A stretch of DNA of 25,691 nucleotides, taken from positions 1-25,691 of IMG/VR virus record IMGVR_UViG_3300044621_000806; one strand, given 5' to 3'. Made by a program: the position numbers and the translations under genes. Numbering within the stretch: the first letter of the stretch is position 1; every line of letters starts with the position of its first letter. The notes under the pieces are model-generated. The model saw nothing but the letters and a program-made list of their open reading frames with translations, was not told the DNA's origin and ran no database searches. Origin of the DNA: a virus. Positions 9,446 to 24,202 of the stretch are shown piece after piece.

Positions 9446-10059
9446 TGCCGCTCACCCGATCATTTACCGGCTATACCCCGCCCCCGCGCTACGACGGACT
9501 GGCTTTCACTTCAGCCGTTATCCGCGAGTCCGACGCAAAGGACGGCACCTACGCCACCATCGAAACGGTTGCCCTGTTCCCGCTTGACACAAACCCGGCA
9601 GACCCCGTATCTCGCAACCTGACCACTGACGGAGCCACGGTCGTGAATGGCTGGTACATCATCCGCTGGGTGGACGCGCTCGGCTCCTACGCCGAAACGG
9701 ACCCGATCAGCTACGCGGCCCTAGCCGAGACTGAGGACGCAAGGGCCAAAATCAGCCGCATGGTCGACGCCGACTCCGAGCCGGTGCTCTCAGCCGAAGA
9801 CCTCGACGATCTTATTGACGCCGCAGCCCGCCCCGACGCTTACGGCCTCTACCGCAACGACGGAGCCTGGACCCCGACTTGGGACTTGAACGCTGCCGCT
9901 GCCGAAGGCTGGGCGCGTAAGTCAAGCAAGGCTGCCAACAAGTTCAACTTCTCCGAGGACGGGCAGCGGTTCGACCGTGCCCAGATATACGCCCACTGCG
10001 CCGCGCAGCAGAAGATGTACGCGGACAAGGCGATGGGCTCGCTTCCTCTTACCACTTAG
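9445..10059 (+). CDS. Head-tail adaptor with extra N-terminal domain
   Basis: The protein is predicted to bind the portal after packaging and form the first connector ring (gp6/gp15-type adaptor). Residues about 97-195 carry the adaptor-like part. It contains RAKISRMVDADSEPVLSAEDLDDLIDAAARPDAYG, then WTPTWDLNAAAAEGWARKSSKAANKFNFSEDGQRF and the helix QIYAHCAAQQKMY, a pattern common in actinobacterial-phage adaptors. Residues about 1-90 form an additional beta-rich domain (YDGLAFTSAVIRESDAKDG, then GWYIIRWVDALGSYAETDPI) resembling a fibronectin/Ig-like module. The product is 204 residues, longer than a bare adaptor. The gene starts at ATG 9445 inside TGATG. The next connector genes lie 4 kb away, past a glycosylation cassette. 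Confidence 0.78.
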   Translation: MPLTRSFTGYTPPPRYDGLAFTSAVIRESDAKDGTYATIETVALFPLDTNPADPVSRNLTTDGATVVNGWYIIRWVDALGSYAETDPISYAALAETEDARAKISRMVDADSEPVLSAEDLDDLIDAAARPDAYGLYRNDGAWTPTWDLNAAAAEGWARKSSKAANKFNFSEDGQRFDRAQIYAHCAAQQKMYADKAMGSLPLTT

Positions 10060-10091
10060 GGCACACGCCCGCCAAGTGTGGAGTGACGGTG

Positions 10092-10125
10092 GGTGGCTGC
10101 CGTTGCTCCGCAATCTTTAGCCACC
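10092..10125 (+). other. Hairpin before glycosylation operon
   Basis: GGTGGCT (10092-10098) can pair with AGCCACC (10119-10125) across a 20-base loop in the 88-base gap between the adaptor gene and the first operon glycosyltransferase. A second AAGCCACC copy follows at 10126-10133, so alternative pairing is possible just upstream of the GAAGGAG ribosome site. It lacks a T-run. It may modulate the operon, but could be chance. Confidence 0.3.
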
Positions 10126-10147
10126 AAGCCACCTGAAGGAGCCACCA

Positions 10148-11344
10148 ATGAGTAAAGAGTCGAGCCTGCTTTGGCACTCGAACGCACCGTGGAGTCCGAC
10201 CGGCTACGGCCAGCAGACTGCCGCGTTTTGTAAGCCGCTCAAGGATCACTACAACCTTGGCATCTCAGCCTTCTATGGCTTGGAGTCCAACGTATTGCCG
10301 TGGAATGGGATACCCGTTTACCCAGGGTTTGCCAACAAGCACGGCAACGAAACGATCCTCGAGCACGCCAACGTTCACTTCAACGGCGACGTTCGAGCTG
10401 GCATTGTCGCCACCCTCATGGATGTCTGGGTTTTGGACCCTGCCATCTGGGAGCGGCTCGACACCTGCTGCTGGGTGCCGGTAGACCACGACCCTGCGCC
10501 TGACGCGGTGGTTGGCTTCTTCCAGGCATCCGGTGCTGTGCCCATCGCAATGTCGAAGTTCGGACGCAGGATGCTCGAGGACGCCGGCCTTGATCCGCTT
10601 TACGTCCCGCACGCGGTTGACACCAGCATTTACAAGCCTCTGGATAAGACAGAGTGCCGGGAGGCAACCGGGATAGATTCCGACGCCTTTGTGGTCGGCA
10701 TGGTGGCAGCCAACAAGGGGAACCCTTCCCGCAAGTGCTTTCATGAGGCGTTTCAGGCTTTCAAGGCTCTCCATGACAAGCACCCAGAGGCGAGGTTGTA
10801 CGTACACGCCGAGGTTCAGGGCCGGTTTGCTGGCGTGAATCTGGCGGGGCTTATGCGCGACATTGGCCTTGATCCCGATGTTGTCATGTTTCCTGACCAG
10901 TACCGGGTGGTCCACTACCCGTACCAGCCAGAGACAATGGCGCGAATCTTCAACTGCTTTGACGTGCTGCTTTCGCCGTCAGCAGGTGAGGGATTCGGTA
11001 TTCCGGTGCTCGAGGCCCAGGCTTGCGGTGTGCCGGTCATCGTGTCGGACTTCTCAGCCCAGCCCGAGCTTTGCGGCAGCGGCTGGCTGGTAACAGGCCG
11101 CAAGGTCTACACGCCGATGCGTAGCTGGCAGTTCCTGCCCGACGTGGACGACATCGTGGACGCTCTCAGGCAGGCATACGACATGCCGGAAGCAGCACAC
11201 AAGCGAATGGGCAAGAAGGCGCGGGAGTTCGCGCTTCCCTACGACATCACAAAGGTCATGGATCAGCACATGCTGCCCGCACTGGCTGAAGTTGAGCGGC
11301 GCTTCGCAGCTCGCAAGCCTCAGACACTCAAGGCGGCAGCGTGA
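10148..11344 (+). CDS. GT4-family glycosyltransferase
   Basis: This is a predicted GT-B-fold glycosyltransferase, the first gene of the tight sugar operon. The 398-residue product has the N-terminal nucleotide/acceptor-side loop SNAPWSPTGYGQQTA (residues 11-25) and a Rossmann-like donor domain from about residue 180 (DAFVVGMVAANKGNPSRKCFHEAF). The GT4 EX7E motif is EGFGIPVLE (Glu281 and Glu289), followed by AQACGVPVIVSDFSAQPELCG. Length and domain order are normal for complete GT4 enzymes. The start is supported by GAAGGAG just upstream of ATG 10148. Its end overlaps the next gene by four bases (GTGA). The acceptor is unknown; the location inside a structural operon suggests a virion protein rather than host cell wall. 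Confidence 0.9.
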   Translation: MSKESSLLWHSNAPWSPTGYGQQTAAFCKPLKDHYNLGISAFYGLESNVLPWNGIPVYPGFANKHGNETILEHANVHFNGDVRAGIVATLMDVWVLDPAIWERLDTCCWVPVDHDPAPDAVVGFFQASGAVPIAMSKFGRRMLEDAGLDPLYVPHAVDTSIYKPLDKTECREATGIDSDAFVVGMVAANKGNPSRKCFHEAFQAFKALHDKHPEARLYVHAEVQGRFAGVNLAGLMRDIGLDPDVVMFPDQYRVVHYPYQPETMARIFNCFDVLLSPSAGEGFGIPVLEAQACGVPVIVSDFSAQPELCGSGWLVTGRKVYTPMRSWQFLPDVDDIVDALRQAYDMPEAAHKRMGKKAREFALPYDITKVMDQHMLPALAEVERRFAARKPQTLKAAA

Positions 11345-12108
11345 AGGTTTCATTCCTCTACGACCCCGGCTGCGCAGACGGCACCCGTGGTGGAGCAGAG
11401 CTGGTAATGGACGAGCTGACAGAAGCCGCTCCGGATTCAGTTGAGTTCACCGGCCCCGCCGACGCTGACACGGTGGTGATCGGCAACTGCGTAACGCTGA
11501 ACAAGGACACGATCCTTTCGCAGATCGAAGGCAAGCGGGTAATGCGCTACCACCACGACCTGGCCCGCGACGAGGACGAGGTTCTGTGGGACTGGCTAAG
11601 CGTCAACGCCGAGCACATCTTCACCTCGCCGTTTCACAAAGAGCAGTACGGACACGAAGGTGACGCGCACCTGATCCCGCCGACCGCCAACCTCAAGTCC
11701 TTCCGCCCGCCACGTGACAAACGCAGGCACCCCAAGCGTGAAGGCATCGTCACGGTGGGATCGTGGCAGGGACCGGGCAAGGGAGCACAGCTTGTCTCGG
11801 AGACTGTCTACCGGATAGGTGAAACCCTGGACTGCTACGGCACCGGCCCCTGGCAGCCAGTAGGCCAGCACGTCAACAGCAAGGGAGCCGTAAGGCACTC
11901 AGACCTGCCGGCGATCCTCTGGACCTACGAGCAGTTCATCTTCCTGCCGTTTGCTGCTGAGCCCTTTGGTCGCTGCGTAGCTGAAGCCTGGGCTGCCGGT
12001 TGTGAAGTGATGACCAACGAGATGGTCGGCTCGAAGTGGTGGATTGAGAACAAGCCCGACGAGCTCTACACCGCAGCTGAAGACTTCTGGAGCATCGTCA
12101 ATGATTGA
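11341..12108 (+). CDS. Compact GT4-like glycosyltransferase
   Basis: This is a GT-B-type glycosyltransferase of only 255 residues, starting at GTG 11341 in a GTGA overlap. The N-terminus MKVSFLYDPGCADGTRGGAEL has the Gly-rich loop seen in GT4 enzymes (GGAEL at 17-21). The region around residue 137 (VTVGSWQGPGKG) starts the donor domain. The EX7E motif is EPFGRCVAE (Glu207 and Glu215), followed by AWAAGCEVMTNEMVG. The protein is shorter than typical GT4 enzymes, with abbreviated linker segments, but both key glutamates are kept, so an active compact enzyme is plausible. It overlaps the following GT-A-like gene by eight bases. Substrates are unknown. Confidence 0.85.
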   Translation: MKVSFLYDPGCADGTRGGAELVMDELTEAAPDSVEFTGPADADTVVIGNCVTLNKDTILSQIEGKRVMRYHHDLARDEDEVLWDWLSVNAEHIFTSPFHKEQYGHEGDAHLIPPTANLKSFRPPRDKRRHPKREGIVTVGSWQGPGKGAQLVSETVYRIGETLDCYGTGPWQPVGQHVNSKGAVRHSDLPAILWTYEQFIFLPFAAEPFGRCVAEAWAAGCEVMTNEMVGSKWWIENKPDELYTAAEDFWSIVND

Positions 12109-12676
12109 CCTGATCGTTCCGACCATCGAAGGCCGCGAAGAGTCGCTGGAGCGCTGCCTTGCTTCCTTCCCAGACCTCAACCACATCGTGGTCAAGGGTC
12201 AGCCGACCTGCGGCCTTGGCTGGATTGAAGGCATCAAGAGAAGCAGCGCGGACTACCTGCTGCTTTGCTGCGATGACATTGAGGCCGAACCAGACTGCGA
12301 CCTCAATGCCTGTATCGAGACGGTCGACGACGATTACCTTCCCGCTCCGATCATCTACCGGCCAAACGGCACCGTTGAGTCCGCAGGCGGCGATATGGGA
12401 GCGCCAGGCTGCCTGCTTAGCGACGTTCAGCCCGACTGGACCCCTGTGGACTTCACGCCGCTTCCCTTTGTCAGCAGGGAGCAGATCGAAAAGATCCGAA
12501 TGATCGAGGCCCACTACATGACCGACGTGTACCTCTCCCACAAAGGCAGGCAGCTCGGTTACGAAACGGTCCTGAGAAACGACTTCCGGCTGATCCATCA
12601 CCACGAGATGGCCGGCAGGAAGTCACCCGGCCCCGACGATCAGGCGCTTTACGAACGAGGGCTGTCGGATGCGTGA
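12101..12676 (+). CDS. GT2-like (GT-A) glycosyltransferase, short
   Basis: This is a likely GT-A-fold glycosyltransferase of 191 residues starting at ATG 12101. The N-terminus MIDLIVPTIEGREESLERCL matches the first strand and helix of GT2 enzymes. DYLLLCCDDIEAEPD (residues 51-65) holds an acidic DD pair in the DxD position. The C-terminal segment YMTDVYLSHKGRQLGYETVL with a downstream HHHEM resembles the rhamnosyltransferase-like GT2 ending, where a His is often conserved. A longer frame opening at 12044 exists, but ATG 12101 begins the conserved strand exactly and overlaps the preceding stop region as is usual in this operon. The enzyme is short for GT2. It overlaps the methyltransferase-like gene by eight bases. 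Confidence 0.78.
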   Translation: MIDLIVPTIEGREESLERCLASFPDLNHIVVKGQPTCGLGWIEGIKRSSADYLLLCCDDIEAEPDCDLNACIETVDDDYLPAPIIYRPNGTVESAGGDMGAPGCLLSDVQPDWTPVDFTPLPFVSREQIEKIRMIEAHYMTDVYLSHKGRQLGYETVLRNDFRLIHHHEMAGRKSPGPDDQALYERGLSDA

Positions 12677-13103
12677 CCCTTACGCCAGCCACCTGAGCGT
12701 CCTGACAACGCTGCTGAACACCTACCACCCAGAGCGCGTGCTCGAATACGGCTCAGGCAAATACTCAACTCCGCTTTTTCTATCGCGTCGGCACATCAAA
12801 AAGCTCACCGTCGTGGAGCAAGACTTGGTTTGGCGTCAAGAGCTGGTCTACAACAACCACGACCCGCGAATGACCGTATTGGCCGAGGGCAACCCGAGCC
12901 CGATGAACTACGACCTCATTTTGATTGACGACGGCATTACGTCTGAACAGCGATGCCGAACCATTCGCGCCGTTTTATCCCGCCGCCACCCGGTAGTCGT
13001 AATCCACGACGCCGAAGTAGAGGAGTACCGAGAACTGATGGACGAGCTGGCAGACGAAGTGCTGATCTACAGAACCGGGCCAGACACGGCGGTGATCTTG
13101 TGA
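12669..13103 (+). CDS. SAM-methyltransferase-like protein
   Basis: The 144-residue product looks like a small Rossmann-fold class I methyltransferase domain. Motif I is VLEYGSGKYSTPLFL (residues 24-38, with GSG as the SAM loop). An acidic residue ends the second strand in LTVVEQD (46-52), and the fourth-strand motif is YDLILIDDG (81-89). VVVIHDAEVEEY follows (about 110-120). It is short for the family and may be a minimal or partly degenerate enzyme. Within this operon an O-methyl capping of a sugar is the natural guess, but the substrate is not shown. It overlaps the upstream GT2-like gene by eight bases and the epimerase gene by four (GTGA). Confidence 0.72.
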   Translation: MRDPYASHLSVLTTLLNTYHPERVLEYGSGKYSTPLFLSRRHIKKLTVVEQDLVWRQELVYNNHDPRMTVLAEGNPSPMNYDLILIDDGITSEQRCRTIRAVLSRRHPVVVIHDAEVEEYRELMDELADEVLIYRTGPDTAVIL

Positions 13104-14026
13104 GAGTCCTTATCACTGGCAGCCTGGGCACCATTGGGGTGCCGCTAACCTTTGAGCTTGCCAACCGAGGAAACGCTGTCTTTGGCTGCGACGTTCGCCA
13201 CGCGGACCAAGAGCAGGACACCTACATGCGGGCCGACGTTGCCGACTTTCGCCAGCTTGAGCGGGTCTTCGCTGAATACCAGCCCGAGGCCGTCTATCAC
13301 CTGGCCGCTGAGTTCGGAAGGCACAACGGCAACCGGCACTTTGAGCAGGTCTGGCGCACCAACCTGATCGGCACTCACAACGTTCTGCTGCTCTGCGAGC
13401 AGTTCGGAGCCAAGCTGATCTTTGCCAGCACGTCAGAAATCTACGGCGAGTGCGACGCAAAGCTCTTGAGCGAAGACCTGAGCCATCAGATCCCGCTTCG
13501 CCAGCCCAACGAATATGCCTTGAGCAAGTGGGCAAACGAGCAACAGATACTCAACTTCACCCGGCTTCACGATGTGGAAGCAGTCAGGCTCCGGTTTTTC
13601 AACGCCTACGGGCCCGGAGAGAACTACCACCCTTACCGCTCAGTGATCGCTTTGTTCTGCCACCGGGCGCTCAACAACATCCCGTGGGAAGTCTACGAGG
13701 GCTACTACCGGACCTTCATGTACATCACGGACTTCACGCCCACCCTGGCGAACGTGCTGGACTACGGCGTACCGGGCGAGGTCTACAACATCGGCGGCAA
13801 CGATTACCGCGCCGTCAAGGAAGTCTCCGACCTGATCCTCGAGCACACCGGAGCCGACCCCGGCCTTGTGAGCTATTTGCCCGAGGATGTTCACAACGTC
13901 AAAAGCAAGAGGCCGGACAATCGCCGCGCCATTGCCGAGCTCGGACACAGCCCGCAGGTTCGGATTGAGGAAGGCGTGCCGCTGACGCTGGACTGGATGC
14001 TTTCGCAGAAACCACTTGCCGCATAG
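13100..14026 (+). CDS. NAD-dependent sugar epimerase/dehydratase
   Basis: This is an extended short-chain dehydrogenase predicted to convert a nucleotide sugar (epimerisation, 4,6-dehydration or similar) and so feed the neighbouring glycosyltransferases. From GTG 13100 the product is 308 residues. The dinucleotide loop is MRVLITGSLGTIG (GxxGxxG at 7-13). An acidic Asp31 ends the second strand (GCDVRH), favouring NAD(H). YHLAAEFG (66-73) and FASTSEIYG (108-116) are family motifs, and the catalytic YxxxK is YALSK (Tyr139, Lys143). RFFNAYGPGE and the C-terminal YNIGGNDYRAVKEVSDLI complete the fold. A longer ORF from 12953 would run through the methyltransferase gene and is less likely. The exact nucleotide sugar is unknown. 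Confidence 0.9.
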   Translation: MRVLITGSLGTIGVPLTFELANRGNAVFGCDVRHADQEQDTYMRADVADFRQLERVFAEYQPEAVYHLAAEFGRHNGNRHFEQVWRTNLIGTHNVLLLCEQFGAKLIFASTSEIYGECDAKLLSEDLSHQIPLRQPNEYALSKWANEQQILNFTRLHDVEAVRLRFFNAYGPGENYHPYRSVIALFCHRALNNIPWEVYEGYYRTFMYITDFTPTLANVLDYGVPGEVYNIGGNDYRAVKEVSDLILEHTGADPGLVSYLPEDVHNVKSKRPDNRRAIAELGHSPQVRIEEGVPLTLDWMLSQKPLAA

Positions 14027-14035
14027 GAGGCCCAC

Positions 14036-14389
14036 ATGCTGACCGAATCCGAACTTGCCTCAATGCGCGAGGTGCTGACCGACTCTCTGGCCGGCACTGC
14101 GGTCATCTTCAACTCTGCCTTCGTGAGTGATGGCGGCGGCGGTGGAACCACAACCTGGACGGCAGCTGGCACCGTCGATTGCCGGGTGGCACCGATTGGC
14201 GGCACCGAAGAGCAGCAGGGCGACCGGCTCCAGCCTGAAACGGAAGTCATCTTCACCGTTCCGCAAGGCATTGCTATCACCGCAGACGCCCAGATCAGGT
14301 ACGACGGCGGCACCTATTCGGTTATTGCCTTGCGAGCACCACGCACCTGGGAGCTTTCACGGCGTGTCGAAGCCAAGGAGATCGAGTAA
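14036..14389 (+). CDS. Head-tail stopper/connector protein
   Basis: This is predicted to form the second connector ring that gates DNA exit, below the adaptor (SPP1 gp16/HK97 gp9-10-region type). The 117-residue product begins with a helix (LTESELASMREVLTDSLAGTA), then has a beta-barrel-like series: TTWTAAGTVDCRVAPIGG, EQQGDRLQPETEVIFTVP, GIAITADAQIRYDGGTYSVIAL. The phrase beginning IRYDGGTYSV is typical of stopper-like proteins. A strong AGGAGG ribosome site (14025-14030) overlaps the end of the epimerase gene and fits ATG 14036. The stop overlaps the next gene by one base (TAATG). Gene order supports the call. Confidence 0.82.
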   Translation: MLTESELASMREVLTDSLAGTAVIFNSAFVSDGGGGGTTTWTAAGTVDCRVAPIGGTEEQQGDRLQPETEVIFTVPQGIAITADAQIRYDGGTYSVIALRAPRTWELSRRVEAKEIE

Positions 14390-14802
14390 TGCCAGCCAAG
14401 TCAATCTTTCAACGCACCGGCGCGGTTGTCGCCTACGTCACCCTGAACTCCGAGCTGGACAACATTGCCAGCGGCATCAGCGACGAGGTTGCCGAGATCA
14501 TGCGTGAGAAGACTGAGGACATAGCTAACGCGGCAAGGCAGGCTGTCCCACGTAACACCGGCAACTTGGCCGACTCCATTGAGGTCGTCGAGTCCGACCT
14601 GAGAGGCCAGCGCGGATACCGGGTCGTGGCAGACGCCAGATCCACCAGCGGCAAGTACGACGTGCCCTATGCCCACATGGTCGAATACGGCTCGGTCCAC
14701 AACGACCCACCTAGACCTTTCCTTGGTCCCGCACTTGATGAGCGCCGCGAAGAGATCGAGAAGGCCGTGGATGCGAAACTGAAGGAGCTGGCAGAAGGAT
14801 GA
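14389..14802 (+). CDS. HK97-gp10-like neck/tail-completion protein
   Basis: The 137-residue product matches the HK97 gp10-like (minor tail/neck) family in length and layout. It has a helical stretch with EVAEIMREKTEDIANAARQAVPRNTGNLADSI (about residues 32-63), containing the family hallmark of Pro-x-x-Thr-Gly-x-Leu-x-x-Ser-Ile. It also has PYAHMVEYGSV (about 93-103) and PPRPFLGPALDE (about 106-117), the typical C-terminal signature. These proteins sit at the head-tail interface or help tail joining. It overlaps its upstream neighbour by one base and the tail-terminator gene by four bases. Confidence 0.9.
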   Translation: MPAKSIFQRTGAVVAYVTLNSELDNIASGISDEVAEIMREKTEDIANAARQAVPRNTGNLADSIEVVESDLRGQRGYRVVADARSTSGKYDVPYAHMVEYGSVHNDPPRPFLGPALDERREEIEKAVDAKLKELAEG

Positions 14803-15206
14803 GCACAGCAATCCGCAAAGGGCTCTACGCCAAACTGACGGCCACAAGCTCTGTGACTACCCTGCTTGCCACCAGCACGTCAATCTTTCACGGGCAGGCA
14901 CCGCCAAACGCGGCATACCCGTACATCATTTTGAGCAAGCAGTCCAACGCCCGCACCCGTTCGTTCAACCAGGTTGCGTTTGAGGCCGAGACTTGGATGG
15001 TCAAGGCTGTGGACCGCAACACGACTTCTGACCGCGCCGAAGGAATCAGGAACGCCGTCGCAACGGCGCTGACCAACGGCACCATCACGGCAAGCGGTCG
15101 AACCATCCAAGACATTTTTCCCACAGGCGATATTGACTACCTCGAAGCTGAGGGAGATCAAACCTATCGCCACCACGGTCTGCTGTTTCGGATCGTGACC
15201 TCCTAG
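14799..15206 (+). CDS. Tail terminator protein (DUF3168-like)
   Basis: This is predicted to cap the head-proximal end of the tail tube and stop polymerisation. The 135-residue product has an N-terminal helix (IRKGLYAKLTATSSVTTLL), then SIFHGQAPPNAAYPYIILSK, a family-typical turn and strand. A central AFEAETWMVKAVDRNTTSDRAEGIRNAVATALTNG follows, and the C-terminus has YLEAEGDQTYRHHGLLFRIVT. This fits the HK97 gp11/DUF3168-like tail terminators in both length and strand order. It overlaps the gp10-like gene (ATGA) and lies just upstream of the tail tube genes. Confidence 0.88.
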   Translation: MSTAIRKGLYAKLTATSSVTTLLATSTSIFHGQAPPNAAYPYIILSKQSNARTRSFNQVAFEAETWMVKAVDRNTTSDRAEGIRNAVATALTNGTITASGRTIQDIFPTGDIDYLEAEGDQTYRHHGLLFRIVTS

Positions 15207-15226
15207 CCCGACTAACGAAAGGCCAT

Positions 15227-15403
15227 ATGTCTCAGTACCGCGTGAGCGGAGCACTTCCGGTGCTCGGCAACGAACCGGGTGCCGTGTTCTCAGCGGTGCT
15301 TGACAAGGAAACGGAATCCCGGCTCTTGGAGCGCGGGTCCATAACCCGCGTCCTCAAGGACGCCTCAAACAAGGGCACTACGCCCAAGAGCGACAAGGAG
15401 TAG
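15227..15403 (+). CDS. Small conserved-style protein before tail tube gene
   Basis: This 58-residue ORF begins at ATG 15227 after CGAAAGG (15216-15222). It ends at TAG 15401, four bases before the major tail protein ATG. Its last codons contain the AAGGAG ribosome site of the tail gene, so the two are coupled. The product starts MSQYRVSGALPVLGNEPGAV and continues with charged residues (LDKETESRLLERGSITRVL) and a Lys-rich end. Similar tiny proteins with a G-x-E-P-G turn and an L-x-x-G-S-I motif occur before tail tube genes in actinobacterial phages as far as I recall. The role is unknown. Confidence 0.72.
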   Translation: MSQYRVSGALPVLGNEPGAVFSAVLDKETESRLLERGSITRVLKDASNKGTTPKSDKE

Positions 15404-15406
15404 CAA

Positions 15407-15829
15407 ATGGCAAAGCAGGTATTGCGTGACGCATACGTAGTAGTGGACGGAACCAACCTCTCCACCCACGTGTCGAGCGTCACCATCGAAGACAGCGCAG
15501 ACGAAGTTGAGTTCACGGGCTTTGGTCCCAGCTCATACCGCGAGTACGGCCAGGGGCTCAAGACCGCCTCAGTCCAGCTCGAGGTCTTTCAGGACCACGC
15601 CTCCGGTTCGGTCGACTCCGTGTTTCACCCGCTCTACACCACGGGCGGCACCTTCGGCGTTGAGATCAGGCCGACCAGCGCCGTTGTCTCAGCGACGAAC
15701 CCGAAGTACACCATGACCGGTCGCCTCTTCACCTACAGCCCGCTTCAGGGTGCCGTGGGTGATGCGAACACCACCTCGATCACCGTGAACAACGCCGGCA
15801 CCGCTGGCCTCGTTCGGGGCACCACCTGA
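15407..15829 (+). CDS. Major tail tube protein
   Basis: This is predicted to be the subunit that stacks into the tail tube. The 140-residue product begins MAKQVLRDAYVVVDGTNLS, then has the paired strands SSVTIEDSADEVEFTGFG and a SYREYGQGLKTASVQLEVFQDHASGSVDSVF segment. The second beta sheet includes GGTFGVEIRPTSAVVSATNP, YTMTGRLFTYSPL and VNNAGTAGLVRGT. This single-domain plan and length match the small tail tube proteins of actinobacterial siphophages. It precedes the chaperone pair and the tape measure, the canonical order. A G+C-rich hairpin follows the gene. Confidence 0.88.
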   Translation: MAKQVLRDAYVVVDGTNLSTHVSSVTIEDSADEVEFTGFGPSSYREYGQGLKTASVQLEVFQDHASGSVDSVFHPLYTTGGTFGVEIRPTSAVVSATNPKYTMTGRLFTYSPLQGAVGDANTTSITVNNAGTAGLVRGTT

Positions 15830-15844
15830 TCCATGAGTAACGGG

Positions 15845-15860
15845 GGGCGGGCACCCGCCC
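15845..15860 (+). terminator. GC-rich hairpin after major tail gene
   Basis: GGGCGG (15845-15850) pairs with CCGCCC (15855-15860) across a GCAC loop, with further G and C runs outside (GGG at 15842-15844, CCCC at 15864-15867) that could extend it past an internal bulge. It lies 15 bases after the tail tube stop and lacks a T-run. Like the hairpin after the capsid gene, it may limit readthrough or protect the message of an abundant structural protein. Confidence 0.45.
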
Positions 15861-15911
15861 GCTCCCCTAGCCACCGGCTGTACCCAGCCACCAACCGAAA
15901 GGAGACTCGCT

Positions 15912-16361
15912 ATGCCGAGACTCACCAAGGAAGCCCTTCTCAAGGCGTCCGACATCAGCACCAAGGAAGTAGAACTCCCGAGCATCGGCGGCAGCGTCGT
16001 AGTTCAGGGGCTCTCTGCCGCCTACAGCAACCAGGCTTCTTCCGAAGCTCTGGAAATGACCACCACCGCACGCGGTGAGCAGATTGCCAGAGTCAACACC
16101 GCCAAGCTCGAGGTGATTCAGGCTCAGCACGGGCTGGTAGATCCCGCCCTTGCCACCTTTGAGGAAGCAGAACAGTTCGCCAAGAACTGCGGCCCTGCCT
16201 TCAAGAAGGTCATTGAGGCCATTGACGAGCTGAGCGGCTTGGACAAGGAGGCCATCACGGAAGCGAAGGCCACATTTCCGAGCAGCGGAGCGAGCCAGGT
16301 CGGGCCAGTGGTGGACGATGGAACTAGCGCCGGGAGTACCGGACCCGCTGTTTCTTCATGA
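15912..16361 (+). CDS. Tail assembly chaperone (gpG-like)
   Basis: This is predicted to be the chaperone that coats the tape measure during tail assembly. The 149-residue product is helical and acidic. It starts PRLTKEALLKASDISTKEVELPSIGGSVVVQGLS, a typical opening, then shows AEQFAKNCGPAFKKVIEAIDELSGLDKEAITEAKATF (about 86-122), the usual core ending. It finishes in a low-complexity Gly/Ser tail. The ribosome site is CGAAAGGAG (15896-15904). Its 3' part overlaps a second ORF in the +1 frame, matching the G/GT arrangement of siphophages, in which a fraction of ribosomes change frame to add a C-terminal domain. Confidence 0.88.
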   Translation: MPRLTKEALLKASDISTKEVELPSIGGSVVVQGLSAAYSNQASSEALEMTTTARGEQIARVNTAKLEVIQAQHGLVDPALATFEEAEQFAKNCGPAFKKVIEAIDELSGLDKEAITEAKATFPSSGASQVGPVVDDGTSAGSTGPAVSS

Positions 16362-16503
16362 ACTAGCCCTGGAGTTGGGCAAGAGCGTCCGAGAAATCGG
16401 AGAGTCAATGTCGGCACATGAGTTGTGCGTGATGTGGCCTGAGTTTTTTGCCGCTCGAAACAGGATGCGTCAAGCAGAGGAAGCAAAACAGGCGGGTCGT
16501 TGA
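16234..16503 (+). CDS. Second tail chaperone domain (gpT-like), frameshifted
   Basis: This frame is open from 16234 to 16503 and is shifted +1 (equivalently -2) relative to the upstream chaperone. The conserved part reads VPDPLFLHELALELGKSVRE, then IGESMSAHELCVMWPEFFA, resembling the gpT-type extension with its L-x-x-E-x-G-x-[ST]-V-x-E plus S-x-x-E-L-x-x-W pattern. An internal ATG at 16318 could start a separate 61-residue protein, but no good ribosome site precedes it, so expression as a frameshift fusion is more likely. Possible +1 slip points in the overlap include TTT-CCG (16275-16280), GGG-A (16332-16335) and CCC-G (16344-16347); none is proven. The start given is the frame opening, not a start codon. 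Confidence 0.75.
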   Translation, partial: AAWTRRPSRKRRPHFRAAERARSGQWWTMELAPGVPDPLFLHELALELGKSVREIGESMSAHELCVMWPEFFAARNRMRQAEEAKQAGR

Positions 16504-16520
16504 TCGGCTCGCCTGTTTTT
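16485..16520 (+). terminator. Intrinsic terminator before tape measure
   Basis: AAAACAGGCG (16485-16494) is perfectly complementary to CGCCTGTTTT (16510-16519). The pairing can extend inward by further G-C and G-T pairs, and the right arm ends in five T residues. This is a classic hairpin plus T-run. The left arm lies inside the last codons of the second chaperone frame, so translating ribosomes would cover it. It lies 26 bases before the tape measure TTG and probably attenuates transcription into the minor tail genes. Confidence 0.8.
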
Positions 16521-16527
16521 AGTTAGT

Positions 16528-16548
16528 CGAAAGGAGCTGGTCTAGTTG
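16528..16548 (+). promoter_or_regulatory. RBS and TTG start of tape measure
   Basis: CGAAAGGAG (16528-16536) is followed nine bases later by TTG (16546-16548), which begins the frame of the tape measure (Ser-Gln-Thr-Ser next). No ATG or GTG gives a comparable start with a ribosome site. A strong ribosome site with a weak TTG codon suggests tuned, low-level initiation, in line with the terminator just upstream. Confidence 0.7.
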
Positions 16549-19500
16549 TCGCAGACTTCATTGAACATCCTGGTCACCGCTACAACCGCGCAGGCACAGG
16601 CGCAGCTGGCGGCGGTCAATGCCCAGATGAAGACCATGGCGGCTCAGGCCGGCATCTCCGGTGGTGCCTTGGGCAAGATTGGCAAGGGCGGGGCTGGCAT
16701 CGCTGCTGTGGGTGCGGTCGCTGTTGTGGCGGGCAAGCAGCTCTATGACCTAGCCAAACAATTCGACGAAGCCTACGACACCATCCGAGTAGGCACGGGA
16801 GCGACGGGCAGGGAGCTAGAAAAGCTCAAAGGCAATTTCAAGGAAGTAGCCAGGACAGTCCCTAACGATTTCAAGGAAGTCGGCACAGCCGTAGCGGACC
16901 TGAATACCCGCCTGGGTCTTTCCGGGAAGCCGCTTGAAGCAATGGCGGAGAACATGCTCCACCTCTCCAACATCACAGGCACAGACCTCGAGGGAAACAT
17001 CAAGTCAGTGGCTAGGGCGTTCGTGGATTGGGAAGTGCCGGTCAAGAAGCAGACCGGGGCACTCGACGGCCTGTTTCGGCTAAGCCAGAAGTCCGGTGCC
17101 AGCGTGAGCGAAATAGCGGACAACATCCAGAAGTTTGGCTCACCGCTCAGAACGCTTGGGCTGAACATTGACTACGCCGCTGCGATGTTCGCCAACTTTG
17201 AGCGGGCAGGCGTGAACATGCAGACGATGGTTCCCGGCCTGAAGTTGGCAATCGGCAACATGGTCGATCCGACCGACGAGCTCGCCAAGAAGTTTGAGAC
17301 TCTGGGCGTCGAGGCTGATAAGCCAGCCGCCGGCCTTCAGAAAATATTCGCTGCTATTGGCAATGATTCTCAACTCAGCAAGGTAGAGAAGATGACCTTG
17401 GCAATGGAGGTCTTCGGCAAGCGGGCCGGTGCGGATATGGCAGAGGCCGTGCGTCAGGGACGCTTTGACGTTGGGGCGTTCATGGACACTTTCAACGACA
17501 AAAACGGCGACAGCATCCGTAAGGCGGCTGACGAAACCTATGACTTCTCAGAGAACGTAAGAATCCTGACCAATAATCTGAAGATTTATCTGGAGCCAGC
17601 AGCAAATGAAGTGTTCACTGCTCTCGACCGGATGGTCAGAAGGATCAACGATGCGATGACGGCACAAAGAGAAGGACGTGCCGAAACAGATGACCTTGCT
17701 ACGGCCTTTCAGGTTCTTGGAGCGGCCATTAGGGCAACCGGCTGGTTGTTTAGGCAGTTCTTCACGCTTGTCAGGAATTCCTTTACAAAAGCCAAGTCAA
17801 ACGTTCGAGACTTTTCCCTCGCTTGGAAGTTCTTGAAAGAAGAAGTCACAGAAAACATCAACCAGATCAAACGAGCATTCGGGATGCTTTACAACTTCAT
17901 CAAGGCCAATATAAACAAGGTTGTTGGCGACATGAAGGCTTTTGCGTCAACTACGAAAAACGTTTTTGGCGCGGTCAAGGATGGAATCGTAAGCGCATTC
18001 AGTTCCGCATGGGGCCGCGTAAAATCCATTTTCCAAGGTGCCAAGGGTTTTGTTGTCGGTTTTGTCAACTCCATCCTTGGAATCTTGGACAGCATCCCTG
18101 GCGTTGACATATCGCCTATCTCTCTGGGCACTGGCGAAGGGACAAGCAAACGGGGACGCCCTCGTGGTCTACAGCGCGGCGGTGTGCTTCAGGGCGGCGC
18201 AGCTTCTGGCGATTCAATCCCGGCCATGCTGGAGCGCGGCGAGTACGTGCTGAACAGAAAAGCAGTCGAGAAAATCGGTGTAGGACGGCTCAATCACATC
18301 AACTTCAAGTCTGCTTCACGGTTCCAGACCGGCGGGGTAGTCGGACTTCAGGATGGCGGCTACCTTGACACTTTGACCGAGCTGCCGGGCAAGTTAATCA
18401 GCCCTATTGCTGACGCTGGGACTGCGGCGCTGGATCTTTTGATGAACGGCCCTGCTCAGTTCCTCAAGATGCTGCCGAAGCCCAATATCCCGCAGCCTCT
18501 CACCGGCGTAGGTCCGTATCTGTTGGAGAAGGCAATCTCGTTTATAAAAGAGAACGCCCAGAGCCCGCTCAAAGACAACGAGTGGGTTGACAGCAACACC
18601 TTCGCCGTCGCTAACTTCCTTGCCAACAAGTTCAGCGCGTCGATCAGCTCGAGCTACAGATCGCCGGCACAAAACGCAGCTGCCGGAGGCGTAACGAACT
18701 CCTCGCACACCAGAGGCACGCCTTCCAACCCCGGCGCTTTTGACTTTGTGCCGCCGTCTGGCGGAATGCAGGGCTTCGTCGGCAGCAACATCGCTGGCGT
18801 ATCAGAGAACATGATTCACGATGTCGGCTCTGGCCTTCACAACCACGTTGCCTTTTTCAGCAGGGGCGGACTGGTTGGGAAAGCTAAGCGCACGCTTTCA
18901 TACGCAAAGGACGTCCAGAAAGAGACTAAGAACAGCAAACTTGCCGGGCAAGCGGTCAAGGCCGCAAGCAGGGCGCTTGACTTTGCCAAAAATGGCAAGC
19001 CTGGCATGGCCAAGAAGTTCATGAAGCGAGCCCAGAGGCTGAGCTCAAGGGCAGCCAGTTCTATCCCCGGCCTAAGTTCTGGGCCACCAAATCTGGCTAC
19101 TAATAGCTTTGACGAAAGCAAGCCTTTCAGTCCTACAAACCTGCCGGGCTTTTCGTTCTTGCCGAAACAAGTTCAGGATCTGATGATGTCACCCGGCCTG
19201 AGTCCTGCCGCTCGACAGAACCTGACGGGCATGGCGCTCACAATGGCTGGGCAGACTCCGACCAAGACTGATGACGCTGCCGCTCTCAACGTCATTTTGC
19301 GAACGCAGATAAACCAGAAGTCAAAAGCGCAAAAGGATCTCCGCAAGGCGAACGCGATGCTTGCCAAGGGTGGCCTGACCAAGAAGGAGAGGCAGCGCTG
19401 GATGGGAGTGCGCGACAGGTCGCTGAACAGCCTGACCACCGCGACTGGCGACATCATCTCAACCACCGACTCCATCAACGAGCTAAACGGCGGCGATGGG

Positions 19501-19686
19501 GAAACCTCTATGGCGGACGCCATGAAGGAGCTGGCCGATGCCATCAAGGAGCAAAACAGGCTCCAGTCGGGCGTCCAGGCTGTCGGCTCCCGCGAAGCGC
19601 TGCGGATGCTCTCGGACGTAATCAGCGGTGAGATCGTCGGCAAGAGATCAGCACCGGCAAATTCCTACTCTGGAGTGAGGTACTAA
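16546..19686 (+). CDS. Tape measure protein with peptidase-like domain
   Basis: The tape measure sets tail length and is ejected with DNA. The 1,046-residue product has an Ala-rich helical N-terminus with a hydrophobic Gly/Ala/Val stretch (about residues 50-65). A phage TMP core contains the EVARTVPNDFKEVG and LAKKFETLGVEADK segments. A helical region (about 370-500) is followed by the conserved GDSIPAMLERGEYVLNRKA motif from residue 555. Residues about 700-770 resemble an M15-type (LAS) peptidase: SSSYRSP (701-707), SSHTRG with His721, AFDF with Asp733 and LHNHV with His765/His767. A C-terminal coiled-coil region follows (about 900-1010). Coding around 17700-18060 is visibly more A+T-rich. 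The start is TTG. The peptidase could thin peptidoglycan during infection. Confidence 0.93.
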   Translation: MSQTSLNILVTATTAQAQAQLAAVNAQMKTMAAQAGISGGALGKIGKGGAGIAAVGAVAVVAGKQLYDLAKQFDEAYDTIRVGTGATGRELEKLKGNFKEVARTVPNDFKEVGTAVADLNTRLGLSGKPLEAMAENMLHLSNITGTDLEGNIKSVARAFVDWEVPVKKQTGALDGLFRLSQKSGASVSEIADNIQKFGSPLRTLGLNIDYAAAMFANFERAGVNMQTMVPGLKLAIGNMVDPTDELAKKFETLGVEADKPAAGLQKIFAAIGNDSQLSKVEKMTLAMEVFGKRAGADMAEAVRQGRFDVGAFMDTFNDKNGDSIRKAADETYDFSENVRILTNNLKIYLEPAANEVFTALDRMVRRINDAMTAQREGRAETDDLATAFQVLGAAIRATGWLFRQFFTLVRNSFTKAKSNVRDFSLAWKFLKEEVTENINQIKRAFGMLYNFIKANINKVVGDMKAFASTTKNVFGAVKDGIVSAFSSAWGRVKSIFQGAKGFVVGFVNSILGILDSIPGVDISPISLGTGEGTSKRGRPRGLQRGGVLQGGAASGDSIPAMLERGEYVLNRKAVEKIGVGRLNHINFKSASRFQTGGVVGLQDGGYLDTLTELPGKLISPIADAGTAALDLLMNGPAQFLKMLPKPNIPQPLTGVGPYLLEKAISFIKENAQSPLKDNEWVDSNTFAVANFLANKFSASISSSYRSPAQNAAAGGVTNSSHTRGTPSNPGAFDFVPPSGGMQGFVGSNIAGVSENMIHDVGSGLHNHVAFFSRGGLVGKAKRTLSYAKDVQKETKNSKLAGQAVKAASRALDFAKNGKPGMAKKFMKRAQRLSSRAASSIPGLSSGPPNLATNSFDESKPFSPTNLPGFSFLPKQVQDLMMSPGLSPAARQNLTGMALTMAGQTPTKTDDAAALNVILRTQINQKSKAQKDLRKANAMLAKGGLTKKERQRWMGVRDRSLNSLTTATGDIISTTDSINELNGGDGETSMADAMKELADAIKEQNRLQSGVQAVGSREALRMLSDVISGEIVGKRSAPANSYSGVRY

Positions 19687-22305
19687 GTGGCTGCTGAATC
19701 TCTGATCCTCACCCCGCCGTCAACCGTTGGCGCTGGCATAGACCTGAACGGCACCAAGTGGCGGATACAGGAGCTGAGCCTTGGCAACCCATCCCGGCGT
19801 GAGGATCTGGTCACTTCCAACGATTCAGACGGCGGCATGCCGGCGAGAGTATCCATGCGGGACGCAAGGGAAGTCACCGCCACCCTGCGGCTGATGGATG
19901 CGGCCAACATGAACGCAGCACTTGAGTCCATCGGTGACCTCGAGCAGAAGCTGGAGCTGGCAGAGCGGCTGGCCTCGAGCGGCCCGACCAACCCGGTTGA
20001 AGAGTGCGTCCGGCTGGTCTACACGCCCAAGGACTCCACCCAGACCTTTAGCCTGATCGTGCTGACGGGAGAGATCAGCCAGGTCCCGAGAGATCACCAG
20101 GGCTGGCTGATTGGCTACCCAACGGTAGAAGTCCGCTTCATCTGCGACCCGTTTGCCTACGGTGCGCTGCGTACCTACCTTGACACCACCACCACGGCTG
20201 AGATCGCACCCAGCATCTCAGTGCCGGGCGGACCCGGTGACGTATCACCTTGGACGCGCATGGCGATCAAGGACACGGCAGCCGTAGGACGCGGCCTGCT
20301 TCGCATCGGTGTCAAGAACACAGCGCAGAACACCACCGCCACCGCCTTCGACGGATCAGATGACCGGATTACCACGACCTACAACCCGTTCACCAACGGG
20401 AGCACCCGCACGTACATGGGGTGGGCGAACCGGACTACCTCGACTACCGCAGACACGCTCTTTGCCGGATCAGTTGCCAGCCCTGCCGTGCTTGCGCTTT
20501 CATCGGGCAGCCAGAACGTGACGTGGAAGCCGCAGAACTCTACGACCACCACGTGGACAGCGGCGTGGCCGGGCAACGCTCAGTGGGTTCATTGGGCGCT
20601 GGTCTTCAACGAGGGCACTGATGCGGCCAGTCTGTTCATCAACGGAGCGCTAGTCACCGCCACCACGAACGCCCAGGCATACAACGGCACCCCCGGCAAC
20701 CTTGTCATCGGTGCCCGACAGAGCACCACCGATCCTTTCGTTGGATCTATGGCGTGGTTCAGCGTCCACGAAAAGGCGCTTACGGCAGAAGAGATCAGCG
20801 CGGCATCACGTCGCTTCTCAGCCGACCAGCTCGTGTCGTTCGGTGGGCTTGGCATCCTGCTCCCGCTGGACGCGGCATCGGGTTTGACTGACCTTTCAGG
20901 CAACGTGCGAACCGGCACGGCGGCGGGTGGTATAACCATCGGCGGCGTGACGGGCCCACTGGATGAGTCGGCGCTGTCGGCTGTCATCTCATCCTCGACG
21001 TGGACGGCAGTGGCCGGAAGCCTTACCGCCGGACCGCCTGCGTATGTCAGCAACGCCACGACCGACTACGACAATTTCACGGTGCTCGCGCAGCTGCCCC
21101 GCCAGTTTCGCACGGGATCATTCCGCGTTTACGCGCACCGGATCTACAACACCTCCGGCATAGAGGGAAGCACAGTCAGGTTGGCGTGGCGCGGTGTCGG
21201 CTCAAGCATCAGGCGCGGCCCGGTGGTGGACATTCAGCCAGCTTCATCAGACCTGTATCTGGGGGAGATCAGCACCGAGACAGCGTGGGACGGCTGGCTT
21301 GAGACTCGCGGCCCGGTGTTCGTCACCGACCTCATCCTCGTGCCGGTCGACTCCTACCTTGAAGCGTCAGGCCCACAAGCGTCTATTCAGATGGTCGGCA
21401 CCACAGCGGCGCTCGACGCGCTTCAGACCACCTCTACCCACATTGACACAAGGACGCTGACAACCGGCGGCGCATGGTCAACGGTCAACTCAGCATCACC
21501 GACCTGGCCTGTGTCGGCAGCGAACTACGCCCGGCGCACTGCGGTCAGCATGGCCTCTCCCGCTTTTGCTCAGGCAGGCACGGCCAACCACATGGAAGTT
21601 CAGGTTCAGGCCACGGTTCGCTTTTCCGATGGCGTTCCCCAGGGCGGTGCCCTTGTTACGGCGCACGGCATCTACGCACGATACGTGGATTCAAGCAACT
21701 ACCTCGCGTTTGGTATGCGAGGAGGTGGGTTTTTGTCCCTTGCCTCAAACCCAGCCTTAGTGATGGTGGTTGCTGGCACCGCAACTGTTCTTTGGAATGG
21801 GCTACAGACTGGAAATACGAATGCCTCTGGCGAAATGACGCTAAAACTTCAGCTCACTTCAGACGGCAGATGGTACGTGGACTTCAGCGGCGGCGGCACG
21901 AACGCCGTCCAGACTGCTTTTGGTCAGAACGGAGTTCTTTCATCCGGTGGCACCCTTGGCAATACGGGCGCGGCGAAGGCCGGTCTTTTCGACAACCACA
22001 CCGCAGCAGGTGCGTCCACCCGAGACTGGAAAGACTTCTCCATCGGCAACCTCGCAGGAGTCACGCCACCCCCGCTGCCCGCATCCCAGACCATCCGCCT
22101 ACAGGGACCGAAGCTCACCACCACAGACGGCACCGAGTATCCCTACATCGGCAGCAGCGGCGTCACACTAGAGCCAGAAGCCAACAACAACCTGACAGTC
22201 ATGGCGCAGCGGATGGCAGGACTCCACGGCGCAGACGCAGACACCCCGGCGCTGGACATCGACATTGACGGATACCCGCGATTTCTGTCAGTGCCGCACA
22301 CATGA
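19687..22305 (+). CDS. Dit-like distal tail protein with LamG domains
   Basis: The 872-residue product starts at GTG directly after the tape measure stop. Residues about 1-175 look like a distal tail (Dit/siphovirus tail component) domain: GIDLNGTKWRIQELSLGNPS, then VRLVYTPKDSTQTFSLIVLTGEI and PTVEVRFICDPFAYG. Residues about 215-375 form a LamG/concanavalin-like domain: TAFDGSDDRITTTYNPF, WVHWALVFNEGTDAASLFIN, GNLVIGARQSTTDPFVGSMAWFSVHEKALTAEEI. A second lectin-like beta domain lies at about 620-790 (MEVQVQATVRFSDGVPQGG, SNYLAFGMRGGG, DGRWYVDFSGG). These domains probably bind surface glycans at the tail tip. Coding near 21720-21860 is slightly more A+T-rich, hinting at modular exchange. It overlaps the hub gene by four bases. 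Confidence 0.82.
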   Translation: MAAESLILTPPSTVGAGIDLNGTKWRIQELSLGNPSRREDLVTSNDSDGGMPARVSMRDAREVTATLRLMDAANMNAALESIGDLEQKLELAERLASSGPTNPVEECVRLVYTPKDSTQTFSLIVLTGEISQVPRDHQGWLIGYPTVEVRFICDPFAYGALRTYLDTTTTAEIAPSISVPGGPGDVSPWTRMAIKDTAAVGRGLLRIGVKNTAQNTTATAFDGSDDRITTTYNPFTNGSTRTYMGWANRTTSTTADTLFAGSVASPAVLALSSGSQNVTWKPQNSTTTTWTAAWPGNAQWVHWALVFNEGTDAASLFINGALVTATTNAQAYNGTPGNLVIGARQSTTDPFVGSMAWFSVHEKALTAEEISAASRRFSADQLVSFGGLGILLPLDAASGLTDLSGNVRTGTAAGGITIGGVTGPLDESALSAVISSSTWTAVAGSLTAGPPAYVSNATTDYDNFTVLAQLPRQFRTGSFRVYAHRIYNTSGIEGSTVRLAWRGVGSSIRRGPVVDIQPASSDLYLGEISTETAWDGWLETRGPVFVTDLILVPVDSYLEASGPQASIQMVGTTAALDALQTTSTHIDTRTLTTGGAWSTVNSASPTWPVSAANYARRTAVSMASPAFAQAGTANHMEVQVQATVRFSDGVPQGGALVTAHGIYARYVDSSNYLAFGMRGGGFLSLASNPALVMVVAGTATVLWNGLQTGNTNASGEMTLKLQLTSDGRWYVDFSGGGTNAVQTAFGQNGVLSSGGTLGNTGAAKAGLFDNHTAAGASTRDWKDFSIGNLAGVTPPPLPASQTIRLQGPKLTTTDGTEYPYIGSSGVTLEPEANNNLTVMAQRMAGLHGADADTPALDIDIDGYPRFLSVPHT

Positions 22306-23894
22306 AGCCACCGGCAGAGATCAACGCGGAGGTGGTGCTGCCGTCCGGCGACCGCATCCGCTGGGACTCCGCAGCACCGAACGTCGAGAACCGTCCGCTC
22401 TCACCGACCTTCACAAGCGAGTCGGGCAAGGGCTTTGCCGCCGGTTCGGTCACGCTCACAAGGCCGACCGAGCGCGACTACCCAGAGCTGGGACTGCTGA
22501 ACGAGCTCATCCTTCGCACAGCCACCGGCAGGACGGTCTATCAGGGCAGGGCTCAGGGTGTGCCTGTATCTGACACGTTCCAGTTCGACTGCGACGGGTG
22601 GTGGAGCCACGGCGAGCAGCGCACCATGACTGAGGTGCTGATCGACCGCGACCTGGGCCGGTGGGAAGGTCCGCGCCTTTCGCGCAGAACCCTTCTCGTT
22701 GCTCTTTCCAACACGCCGATTACCGAGCCTGCTGTTTCGCCGGATGACATAGACAAACTGATGGCGCTCAGATTGTCCATGCCGCCTTCCCCCGCATCGC
22801 CGGTTCCGTGGTCGGAAGCTTGGTATGACGCTGGCTCTTCAAGGGTTGCGGCGATTTACTACGACATGATTTCAGTCAGCGCTTCAGGTGACTTTGGGTT
22901 TATCGGCACCGCAACTGACGAGGTTGGATTCGGGCCGCTTTCCACTGCCGACCTTCTGACCGGCACCAACTCAACTGCGGTTGGCACCTTTACACCCAGC
23001 ACACCGGCCAGGTTCGGTCGAGCGTTTGCCTACCGCTCAGGCACGGCCAACACCGCTGAGAAGTCCATGACGCTCCGCAAGCTCACCGTCGTAGGTGACC
23101 ACGGCATTCCGACCGTTACCCACGCAGAAGGCACCCCGGCAGTTACGGCATCTGAGGCGATCAAATATCTGGCGAGCAAGTACGCGCCGAAGTGGGATGT
23201 ATCAGGCGTACAAGACACCTCCTACCCGATCCCGCACGCCACATGGCATGACCCGACCACCGCAGCCGACGCGATCAAGCAGCTCAACTCCTACCACCTG
23301 TGGAAGCTCGGAGTCTGGGAAGACCGCCGACTGGAGTTCGCACCCTACGACCTGGCTGTGGCTGACTGGCAGGTAGCCAACGGCATTGACGGCGTGAGTG
23401 TCGAGTACCAGGGAGACACCACCGAGAACGTCTTCAACGGCTGCTCTGTGACCTTTACTGACTTTTCAGGACTACGGCAGAGGCTCACGCCCGAGGACAC
23501 CAACGATCTCAAAGACGAAGCCGAGTGGATTGCCGCCAACCAGTGGGGAGATCAGGCTTGGCTGGAGATCACCGTTTCGTGGCCGACCACGGCAGACGAC
23601 GCTGTGACCATCGGGAACATCGCACTTGCTTCGGCTAATCAGGCCAAGCGGCCTTCAACGATCACGGTCCCCATGCACATCAAGGACATCAACGGCTCAT
23701 GGTGGCCGAGCTCCTACGTGCGAGCCGACCAGACGATTCTCGTAACCAACCAGCACACGCCCGTACCGCGACTGATAACCCGCGCTTCCTGGTCTAACCA
23801 CGTCCTGACTCTTACGACGGACAACGCCATTGACACGATGGAAGCCTTCAACCAGCGCATCGGGACTGCCCTTACAGCGAATGGACTGACATGA
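22302..23894 (+). CDS. Tail hub / minor tail protein (Tal-like)
   Basis: The 530-residue protein probably forms the central baseplate hub at the tail tip. It starts MKPPAEINAEVVLPSGDRIRW and has a first beta domain ending near RAQGVPVSDTFQFDCDGWWSHGE, typical of hub proteins that redefine a local coordinate (the gp27/gpD-like fold). An insert at about 165-270 (SEAWYDAGSSRVAAIYYDM through RSGTANTAEKSMTLRKL) looks like a separate beta sandwich. Then come TASEAIKYLASKYAPKWDVS and ATWHDPTTAADAIKQLNSYHLWKLGVWEDRRLEF, features common to minor tail hub proteins. No catalytic peptidase motif is visible. It overlaps the Dit-like and lysis genes by four bases each (ATGA). Confidence 0.8.
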   Translation: MKPPAEINAEVVLPSGDRIRWDSAAPNVENRPLSPTFTSESGKGFAAGSVTLTRPTERDYPELGLLNELILRTATGRTVYQGRAQGVPVSDTFQFDCDGWWSHGEQRTMTEVLIDRDLGRWEGPRLSRRTLLVALSNTPITEPAVSPDDIDKLMALRLSMPPSPASPVPWSEAWYDAGSSRVAAIYYDMISVSASGDFGFIGTATDEVGFGPLSTADLLTGTNSTAVGTFTPSTPARFGRAFAYRSGTANTAEKSMTLRKLTVVGDHGIPTVTHAEGTPAVTASEAIKYLASKYAPKWDVSGVQDTSYPIPHATWHDPTTAADAIKQLNSYHLWKLGVWEDRRLEFAPYDLAVADWQVANGIDGVSVEYQGDTTENVFNGCSVTFTDFSGLRQRLTPEDTNDLKDEAEWIAANQWGDQAWLEITVSWPTTADDAVTIGNIALASANQAKRPSTITVPMHIKDINGSWWPSSYVRADQTILVTNQHTPVPRLITRASWSNHVLTLTTDNAIDTMEAFNQRIGTALTANGLT

Positions 23895-24187
23895 CACCAG
23901 GCGACATCAACACCATTCTTGTTGAGCTGGGGCGCATCGCCACGAAACTTGACGCACAGCAGGAGGCGCTGACGGAGATCCGCAGCGAGGTCAAAAAGAC
24001 CAACGGGCGAGTGACCGAGCTCGAAGGCAGGGAGCAAGTCGACAAGGCGCTCATCAACCAGCGCCAGCAGCGCGATCAGCAGTACCGCGAGCGGATTGCC
24101 CGCTGGGTGGCACCGGGGGTCATCGGTTTTCTAGTTGTCATCGGTAGTGCCGCGACGGTGGCACTGCTGAATCTGGACAAGCTCTAA
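23891..24187 (+). CDS. XhlA-like coiled-coil membrane protein
   Basis: The 98-residue product is a predicted coiled coil (residues about 5-62, rich in Glu/Gln/Arg, including KLDAQQEALTEIRSEVKKTNGRVTEL). A basic linker follows, then one C-terminal membrane segment (about 74-93, WVAPGVIGFLVVIGSAATV) with a short tail. This is the plan of XhlA/hemolysin-type accessory lysis proteins that work with a holin and lysin. It starts in an ATGA overlap with the hub gene and lies directly before two lysin genes. An N-in orientation is guessed from the basic linker. It may help holin function or tether lysin at the membrane. Confidence 0.75.
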   Translation: MTPGDINTILVELGRIATKLDAQQEALTEIRSEVKKTNGRVTELEGREQVDKALINQRQQRDQQYRERIARWVAPGVIGFLVVIGSAATVALLNLDKL

Positions 24188-24202
24188 CAACAGGAGGGCC
24201 AA

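Follow-up and report, generated by a model that had tools for sequence, protein, structure and literature searches.

A terminator-like hairpin at the chaperone/tape measure junction of a viral tail operon and its possible role as an attenuator

In phage lambda, the tail assembly chaperone and its frameshifted form are reported to occur at a ratio of 30:1 and both to bind the tape measure protein (PMC5009743). The end of the frameshifted chaperone gene meets the start of the tape measure gene (T ends at 10549 and H starts at 10542), as at the locus described here, but lambda differs in that the shift is –1, the T and H genes overlap and our scan matched no hairpin at the junction; a link between the two genes would there be translational. 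Terminator-like hairpins between structural genes of one operon are also on record. The HK97 record annotates several putative terminators, one of which lies just before the tape measure gene, and a terminator has been described after the major tail gene of Corndog (PMC4351075). The locus described here resembles both (and HK97 also in the position before the tape measure gene), but the sites lie after a moron gene in HK97 and after the major tail gene in Corndog, and neither of them over a frameshifted chaperone stop.

A further likeness is to the ribosome-repressed terminators treated in PMC4824070, including attenuation of the pyrBI type as cited there, in which a stop codon likewise lies near the hairpin and the ribosome hinders its folding. 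According to that paper, an E. coli terminator located 5 nt after a stop codon works at less than 10% and one at 28 nt at about 90%, removing translation abolishes the repression of the terminator, and distances above 27 nt lead to full termination. In the systems of that paper the translation is ordinary and the effect was measured, whereas here a programmed frameshift and a phage structural gene would be involved and the effect is one that we infer. Terminators within structural operons have precedents, as does the repression of terminators by ribosomes; joining the two to a programmed frameshift would be new. The open-access literature searched yielded no account in which chaperone frameshifting, a terminator and the tape measure gene are linked.

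The chaperone/tape measure junction in the window

The window, i.e. the whole stretch of DNA analysed, is an IMG/VR virus record of 25.7 kb (IMGVR_UViG_3300044621_000806; 25,691 nucleotides), classed as linear, in which the major tail protein gene is followed by a two-frame tail assembly chaperone and the tape measure protein gene. The features of this region are as follows:

15407–15829, plus strand: major tail protein gene (PHROG 4574, E 1.6e-18)
15912–16361, plus strand: tail assembly chaperone ORF1, the unshifted product, with stop TGA at 16359–16361 (PHROG 344, E 3.2e-10; alignment)
16275–16278, plus strand: TTT-C, proposed +1 frameshift site (TTTC conserved in ORF1 phase)
16276–16503, plus strand: tail assembly chaperone ORF2, +1 frame, with stop TGA at 16501–16503 in the hairpin loop (alignment)
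16485–16499, plus strand: hairpin left arm AAAACAGGCGGGTCG, coding in ORF2 (folding)
16500–16504, plus strand: hairpin loop TTGAT, holding the ORF2 stop (folding, sequence)
16505–16519, plus strand: hairpin right arm CGGCTCGCCTGTTTT (folding)
16516–16520, plus strand: T run (TTTTT) of the terminator-like element, overlapping the stem base (sequence, terminator scan)
16530–16536, plus strand: Shine-Dalgarno sequence AAAGGAG of the tape measure gene (sequence)
16546–19686, plus strand: tape measure protein gene, TTG start (PHROG 991, E 2.3e-35; PF10145)

Relatives of the tape measure protein were found in actinophages, though Streptococcus phages carried them more often. Upstream of the tail genes, the window carries genes for a collagen-repeat protein (6027–7562), a glycosyltransferase (10148–11344) and an NAD-dependent sugar epimerase (12953–14026), which possibly have a role in glycosylation of virion proteins, and the gene next after the tape measure gene (19687–22305) contains a laminin-G-like (concanavalin A-like) domain.

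ORF2 lies in the +1 frame relative to ORF1, and its profile match (PHROG 337, E 7.6e-6) covers 16318–16500. The conserved part of ORF2 starts at 16276, upstream of the first ORF2 ATG at 16318, and ORF2 is therefore most simply reached from ORF1. As in chaperones of the lambda G/GT type, two overlapping frames are thus found between the major tail and tape measure genes, with the second conserved upstream of its own first start, and the frames fit a frameshifted tail assembly chaperone with a predicted fusion product. The likely +1 shift site is the TTT-C at 16275–16278, as TTTC was present in ORF1 phase in all 27 distinct homologues with an ORF2 match starting at this residue, compared to only 7 TTT versus 77 TTC among the Phe codons upstream in the same ORF1 stretches (TTC in 77/84). 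Here, tRNA-Phe might slip from UUU to UUC and so enter the +1 frame. Such forward shifts are known, with PRFect counting 350 forward cases among the slippery sites of annotated phage frameshifts (PMC10885494).

The first-pass annotation of 16485–16548 had placed a perfect 10-bp hairpin with a T run at the end of the chaperone gene, with its left arm in the frameshifted frame, and had the tape measure gene start at a TTG 26 bases further on. The coordinates indeed proved right, and the tape measure ORF starts at TTG 16546, 26 bases past the stem. The stem itself turned out to be longer, since the perfect 10 bp (AAAACAGGCG/CGCCTGTTTT) form the outer portion of a 15-pair stem with a 5-base loop and G-U pairs in its upper part. 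The hairpin overlaps the chaperone gene end as claimed, and because the ORF2 stop sits in the loop, the left arm lies within translated sequence in the shifted frame only. By this geometry only shifted-frame ribosomes can cover the hairpin, as the ORF1 stop lies 123 nt upstream of the left arm in the window, and 69–163 nt upstream across the 15 hairpin-bearing junctions described below (computed with the +1 relation of the frames fixed). A ribosome on the upstream frame can therefore cover a terminator arm, which is the geometry of an attenuator of the pyrBI type.

The window hairpin combines a stable G+C-rich stem-loop with a T run directly after the stem, in the manner of an intrinsic terminator. 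In our own terminator scan it was the sole plus-strand match in the 25.7 kb (core stem dG –19.2, tail TTTTTAGTT), next to one weaker match on the minus strand, and 60 dinucleotide shuffles of the window yielded 1.17 matches each at dG ≤ –8 but none at –19.2, the best being –16.7. A stock terminator scanner, which reported 15 sites in the window versus 13.7 in shuffles, did not list the hairpin, probably because its rule lets the full stem consume the T run. The whole 15-pair stem was contained in the minimum-energy fold, with 3/200 shuffles folding equally well (z –2.39), and for a second segment in which the window hairpin folded, 0/200 shuffles were as good (z –3.48). An Rfam search returned no match.

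Hairpins at homologous junctions

Related contigs were gathered by scans with the tail proteins of the window and with alignments of these proteins. The junction set comprised 44 loci plus the window; one locus (L174) was dropped for having no stop in the contig, and the 44 rows were merged to 33 distinct junctions by shared 10-mers. A hairpin with dG ≤ –15 enclosing the ORF2 stop in its loop was found at 15 of these 33 junctions, versus 2 of 239 other gene stops in the same contigs, the latter being mechanical gene calls of 90 aa or more. The difference was pronounced (Fisher 7e-14, Mann-Whitney 1e-5), with the reservation that both values ignore the relatedness of the junctions and that the counts are therefore not independent. 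When the flanks were shuffled around a fixed stop, 13 of the 15 hairpins were reached by 0/200 shuffles, and those of L141 and L167 by 2% and 1%, respectively. The ORF2 tails themselves vary in length and sequence among homologues. In L139, a close relative of the hairpin-bearing L138 and L011, the hairpin is absent and a 4-pair remnant is left, which looks like a natural loss.

Covariation was counted in a well-aligning subset (alignment A7, consisting of the window, L138, L011, L009, L169, L172, L143, L150 and L142; 8 distinct rows), with L141, L144, L014, L160, L161 and L166 (in alignment A6) and L167 outside the count. In this alignment, 93.1% of the cells were paired and 11 cells were changed on both sides. 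The covariation score was 0.429 versus 0.229 in shuffles (0/500 as high) and reached at most 0.169 when slid, while the numbers of pairs with two-sided change (4) and of pair types (13) were not unusual (202 and 72 of 500 shuffles, respectively). RNAalifold likewise recovered the helix, with 13 pairs. T made up a mean of 4.87 of the 8 bases following the 15 hairpins, compared to 1.31 at randomly chosen places, where the highest of 2000 draws was 2.33. Our own T-run rule was passed by 9 of the 15 stop-enclosing hairpins (window, L138, L011, L143, L144, L150, L160, L169 and L172), with tails being weak in L142 and L166 and poor in L141, L014, L161 and L167. A chance hairpin was ruled out by the control stops, the covariation and the window shuffles, and the control stops, covariation and T-rich tails support a terminator-like hairpin that appears to be selected at the chaperone/tape measure junction.

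Terminator-like matches were also collected at dG ≤ –13 in 79 records, yielding 36 on the plus strand and 22 on the minus strand. An ORF stop was located inside the hairpin in 7 of the 36 plus-strand matches, and 6 of these 7 were the chaperone/tape measure junction (window, L031, L009, L011, L033 and L041, of which L009 and L011 are near-copies), the seventh belonging to a 180-nt ORF in L065. Enclosure of a stop in the loop is therefore not the usual terminator layout in this 79-record sample.

Stop–start layout, tree and cultured phages

The hairpin was found at 14 of 16 junctions where the next start is detached from the ORF2 stop, and at 1 of 17 where it adjoins or overlaps that stop (Fisher 2e-6, for junctions that are related and show few changes on the tree). 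The layouts were assigned by hand. L157 was classed as adjoining because a small ORF starts at its stop, although its tape measure start is 157 nt off, and counting it as detached instead gives 14/17 and 1/16; L173, with a start 9 nt past the stop, was classed as adjoining, and L143, whose next gene carries no assignment, as detached. On the tree, the layout changes 3 times and the hairpin 5 times (at least 3 of them forced by well-supported branches), leaving 1 to 3 independent pairs only, and the hairpin state clusters. A tie between the hairpin and detached tape measure starts is thus suggestive but not proven, as it rests on few events.

The two detached junctions lacking a stop-enclosing hairpin are L139, which has none, and L162, in which a strong terminator starts 24 nt past the first stop base. 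The sole adjoining junction with a hairpin is L167, where the T run is absent and both the ORF2 stop and the ATG of the tape measure gene fall within the loop of one hairpin. Separately, L160 and L166 carry a second hairpin 20–60 nt after the ORF2 stop, with the tape measure ATG in its loop. In L144, L014 and L161 the hairpin is followed by a different short gene, HK97 gp10-like by eye. Together with the unassigned gene of L143, this indicates that the hairpin is tied to the chaperone end, mostly but not always before a tape measure gene.

The first-pass annotation had read the hairpin and the TTG start together as a two-level control of tape measure dosage. The first level is borne out insofar as the terminator-like hairpin appears to be selected, but the second is not, because the 11 listed detached junctions have 7 ATG, 3 GTG and only 1 TTG start, that of the window, and the start in the window is preceded by a good Shine-Dalgarno sequence. 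The TTG was therefore rejected as a second brake conserved across junctions. A strong Shine-Dalgarno sequence of their own is often present in tape measure genes whose start is detached.

Among cultured phages, no match to the window was found at the level of near DNA, and none to the ORF2 protein at E 0.1, while the ORF1 protein had one match, in Thermobifida phage P1312. A scan of genome contigs gave a single weak 25-residue match in Mesorhizobium, which was not used. In 17 reference records, our T-run scan matched the junction in HK97 only, at the annotated terminator after the moron gene; there was no junction match in the Arthrobacter and Gordonia records, Thermobifida phage P1312, TM4, lambda or phiC31, in which the next starts lie close to or overlap the chaperone stop. 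In 6 of the 17 records, from Arthrobacter and Gordonia phages, a terminator-like hairpin was seen just upstream of the major capsid gene (L120 1040, L121 553, L122 482, L124 898, L129 579 and L130 1049).

In the Curtobacterium phages Buldak and Shayna, folding placed a strong hairpin immediately downstream of the chaperone stop, and a search with the Buldak junction retrieved 107 phage records, 94 of them from Microbacterium phages. All nine cultured phages examined (three Curtobacterium phages including Buldak, and six Microbacterium phages) had a hairpin, with poor T runs throughout. The stop of the joined chaperone lies in the loop in five (Celaena, FlameThrower, Stoor, AvGardian and IndyLu), which count as one case because their arms are identical, and the left arm starts 2–4 nt after the stop in the other four (Dismas, Buldak, Olliecat and Shayna). 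The stretch from the hairpin to the tape measure gene holds small reverse-strand genes in Shayna (L126 5491–5676), Stoor (L178 1796–1930), AvGardian (L179 1765–1899) and IndyLu (L180 1759–2028), as if this interval accepts inserted genes.

Proposed attenuation at the hairpin and rival explanations

We propose that the hairpin and T run act as a partial intrinsic terminator, i.e. an attenuator, where the frameshifted chaperone frame ends. RNA polymerase arriving from the major tail and chaperone genes would be partly released at the hairpin, and the tape measure gene would be transcribed via readthrough, so that its product is kept scarce. Dependence on readthrough is probable because the tape measure start lies only 26 nt past the stem and no sigma-70-like promoter was found at 10000–25691 in a scan covering this promoter type. 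A shifted ribosome following close behind the polymerase would occupy the left arm and the loop and impede their folding, while unshifted ribosomes would halt 123 nt upstream of the left arm, too early to interfere with the terminator. With the ORF2 stop in the loop, readthrough should therefore rise with frameshifting. By analogy with the stop-distance effect in E. coli, repression of the terminator would be expected from a ribosome in the shifted frame but not from one that has stayed in the ORF1 frame.

Judged from the sequence comparisons, attenuation of some kind at the hairpin is quite probable. We give a probability of about 0.5 to the reading as a whole, in which an attenuator limits tape measure transcription and gating by the frameshift is a likely but not required part. 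Taken separately, gating of the hairpin by frameshifted ribosomes in vivo is a tentative proposal that we would not yet bet on, and the full scheme, in which the +1 shift opens the attenuator and tape measure transcription scales with the amount of frameshifted chaperone, is if anything a shade more doubtful. The gating step would need close coupling of transcription and translation in the host. Runaway transcription, in which the polymerase outruns the ribosomes, is described for some hosts in PMC13323073, and in such a host a plain leaky terminator would remain.

Such a plain leaky intrinsic terminator might by itself set the tape measure dosage, with ribosomes having no influence (for example because the polymerase outruns them) and the stop lying in the loop due to a compact genome and inherited geometry. 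This is possible, though rather unlikely in our view. It would agree with the terminator-like sites inside the structural operons of HK97 and Corndog, with the clustering of the hairpin state on the tree, by which shared ancestry could explain much of the geometry, and with the stop being outside the hairpin in 4 of the 9 other phages. However, the stop lies in the loop in 15/15 hairpins (an enclosure that the search required) even though the ORF2 tails differ, only 1 of the 16 detached junctions has a terminator elsewhere, and stop-enclosing plus-strand terminators in the 79 records were few and, with one exception, confined to this junction.

A hairpin that does not itself terminate, and whose main role is protecting or shaping the 3′ end left on the upstream mRNA by processing or by Rho-dependent termination, seems improbable: several hairpins do lack a good T run, but T is enriched after the hairpins as a set, and the tails are canonical in the window and several relatives. 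More improbable by far is a transcription-unit boundary at the hairpin, with a separate promoter close by for the tape measure gene. The frequent strong Shine-Dalgarno sequences of detached tape measure genes, pointing to independent translation, would suit this arrangement; against it, only 26 nt separate the hairpin from the start, and the sigma-70-like scan was empty from 10000 on (other promoter types lying outside its scope).

Under the frameshift-gated scheme, phages of the same family that lack the hairpin would have a similar link via a frameshift stop that adjoins or overlaps the tape measure start. As cultured phages of Microbacterium foliorum carry the layout, the scheme is open to test. 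Tail assembly needs fixed ratios, and if the frameshift-gated scheme is true, one rare frameshift event would set two linked dosages, that of the frameshifted chaperone and that of the tape measure protein.
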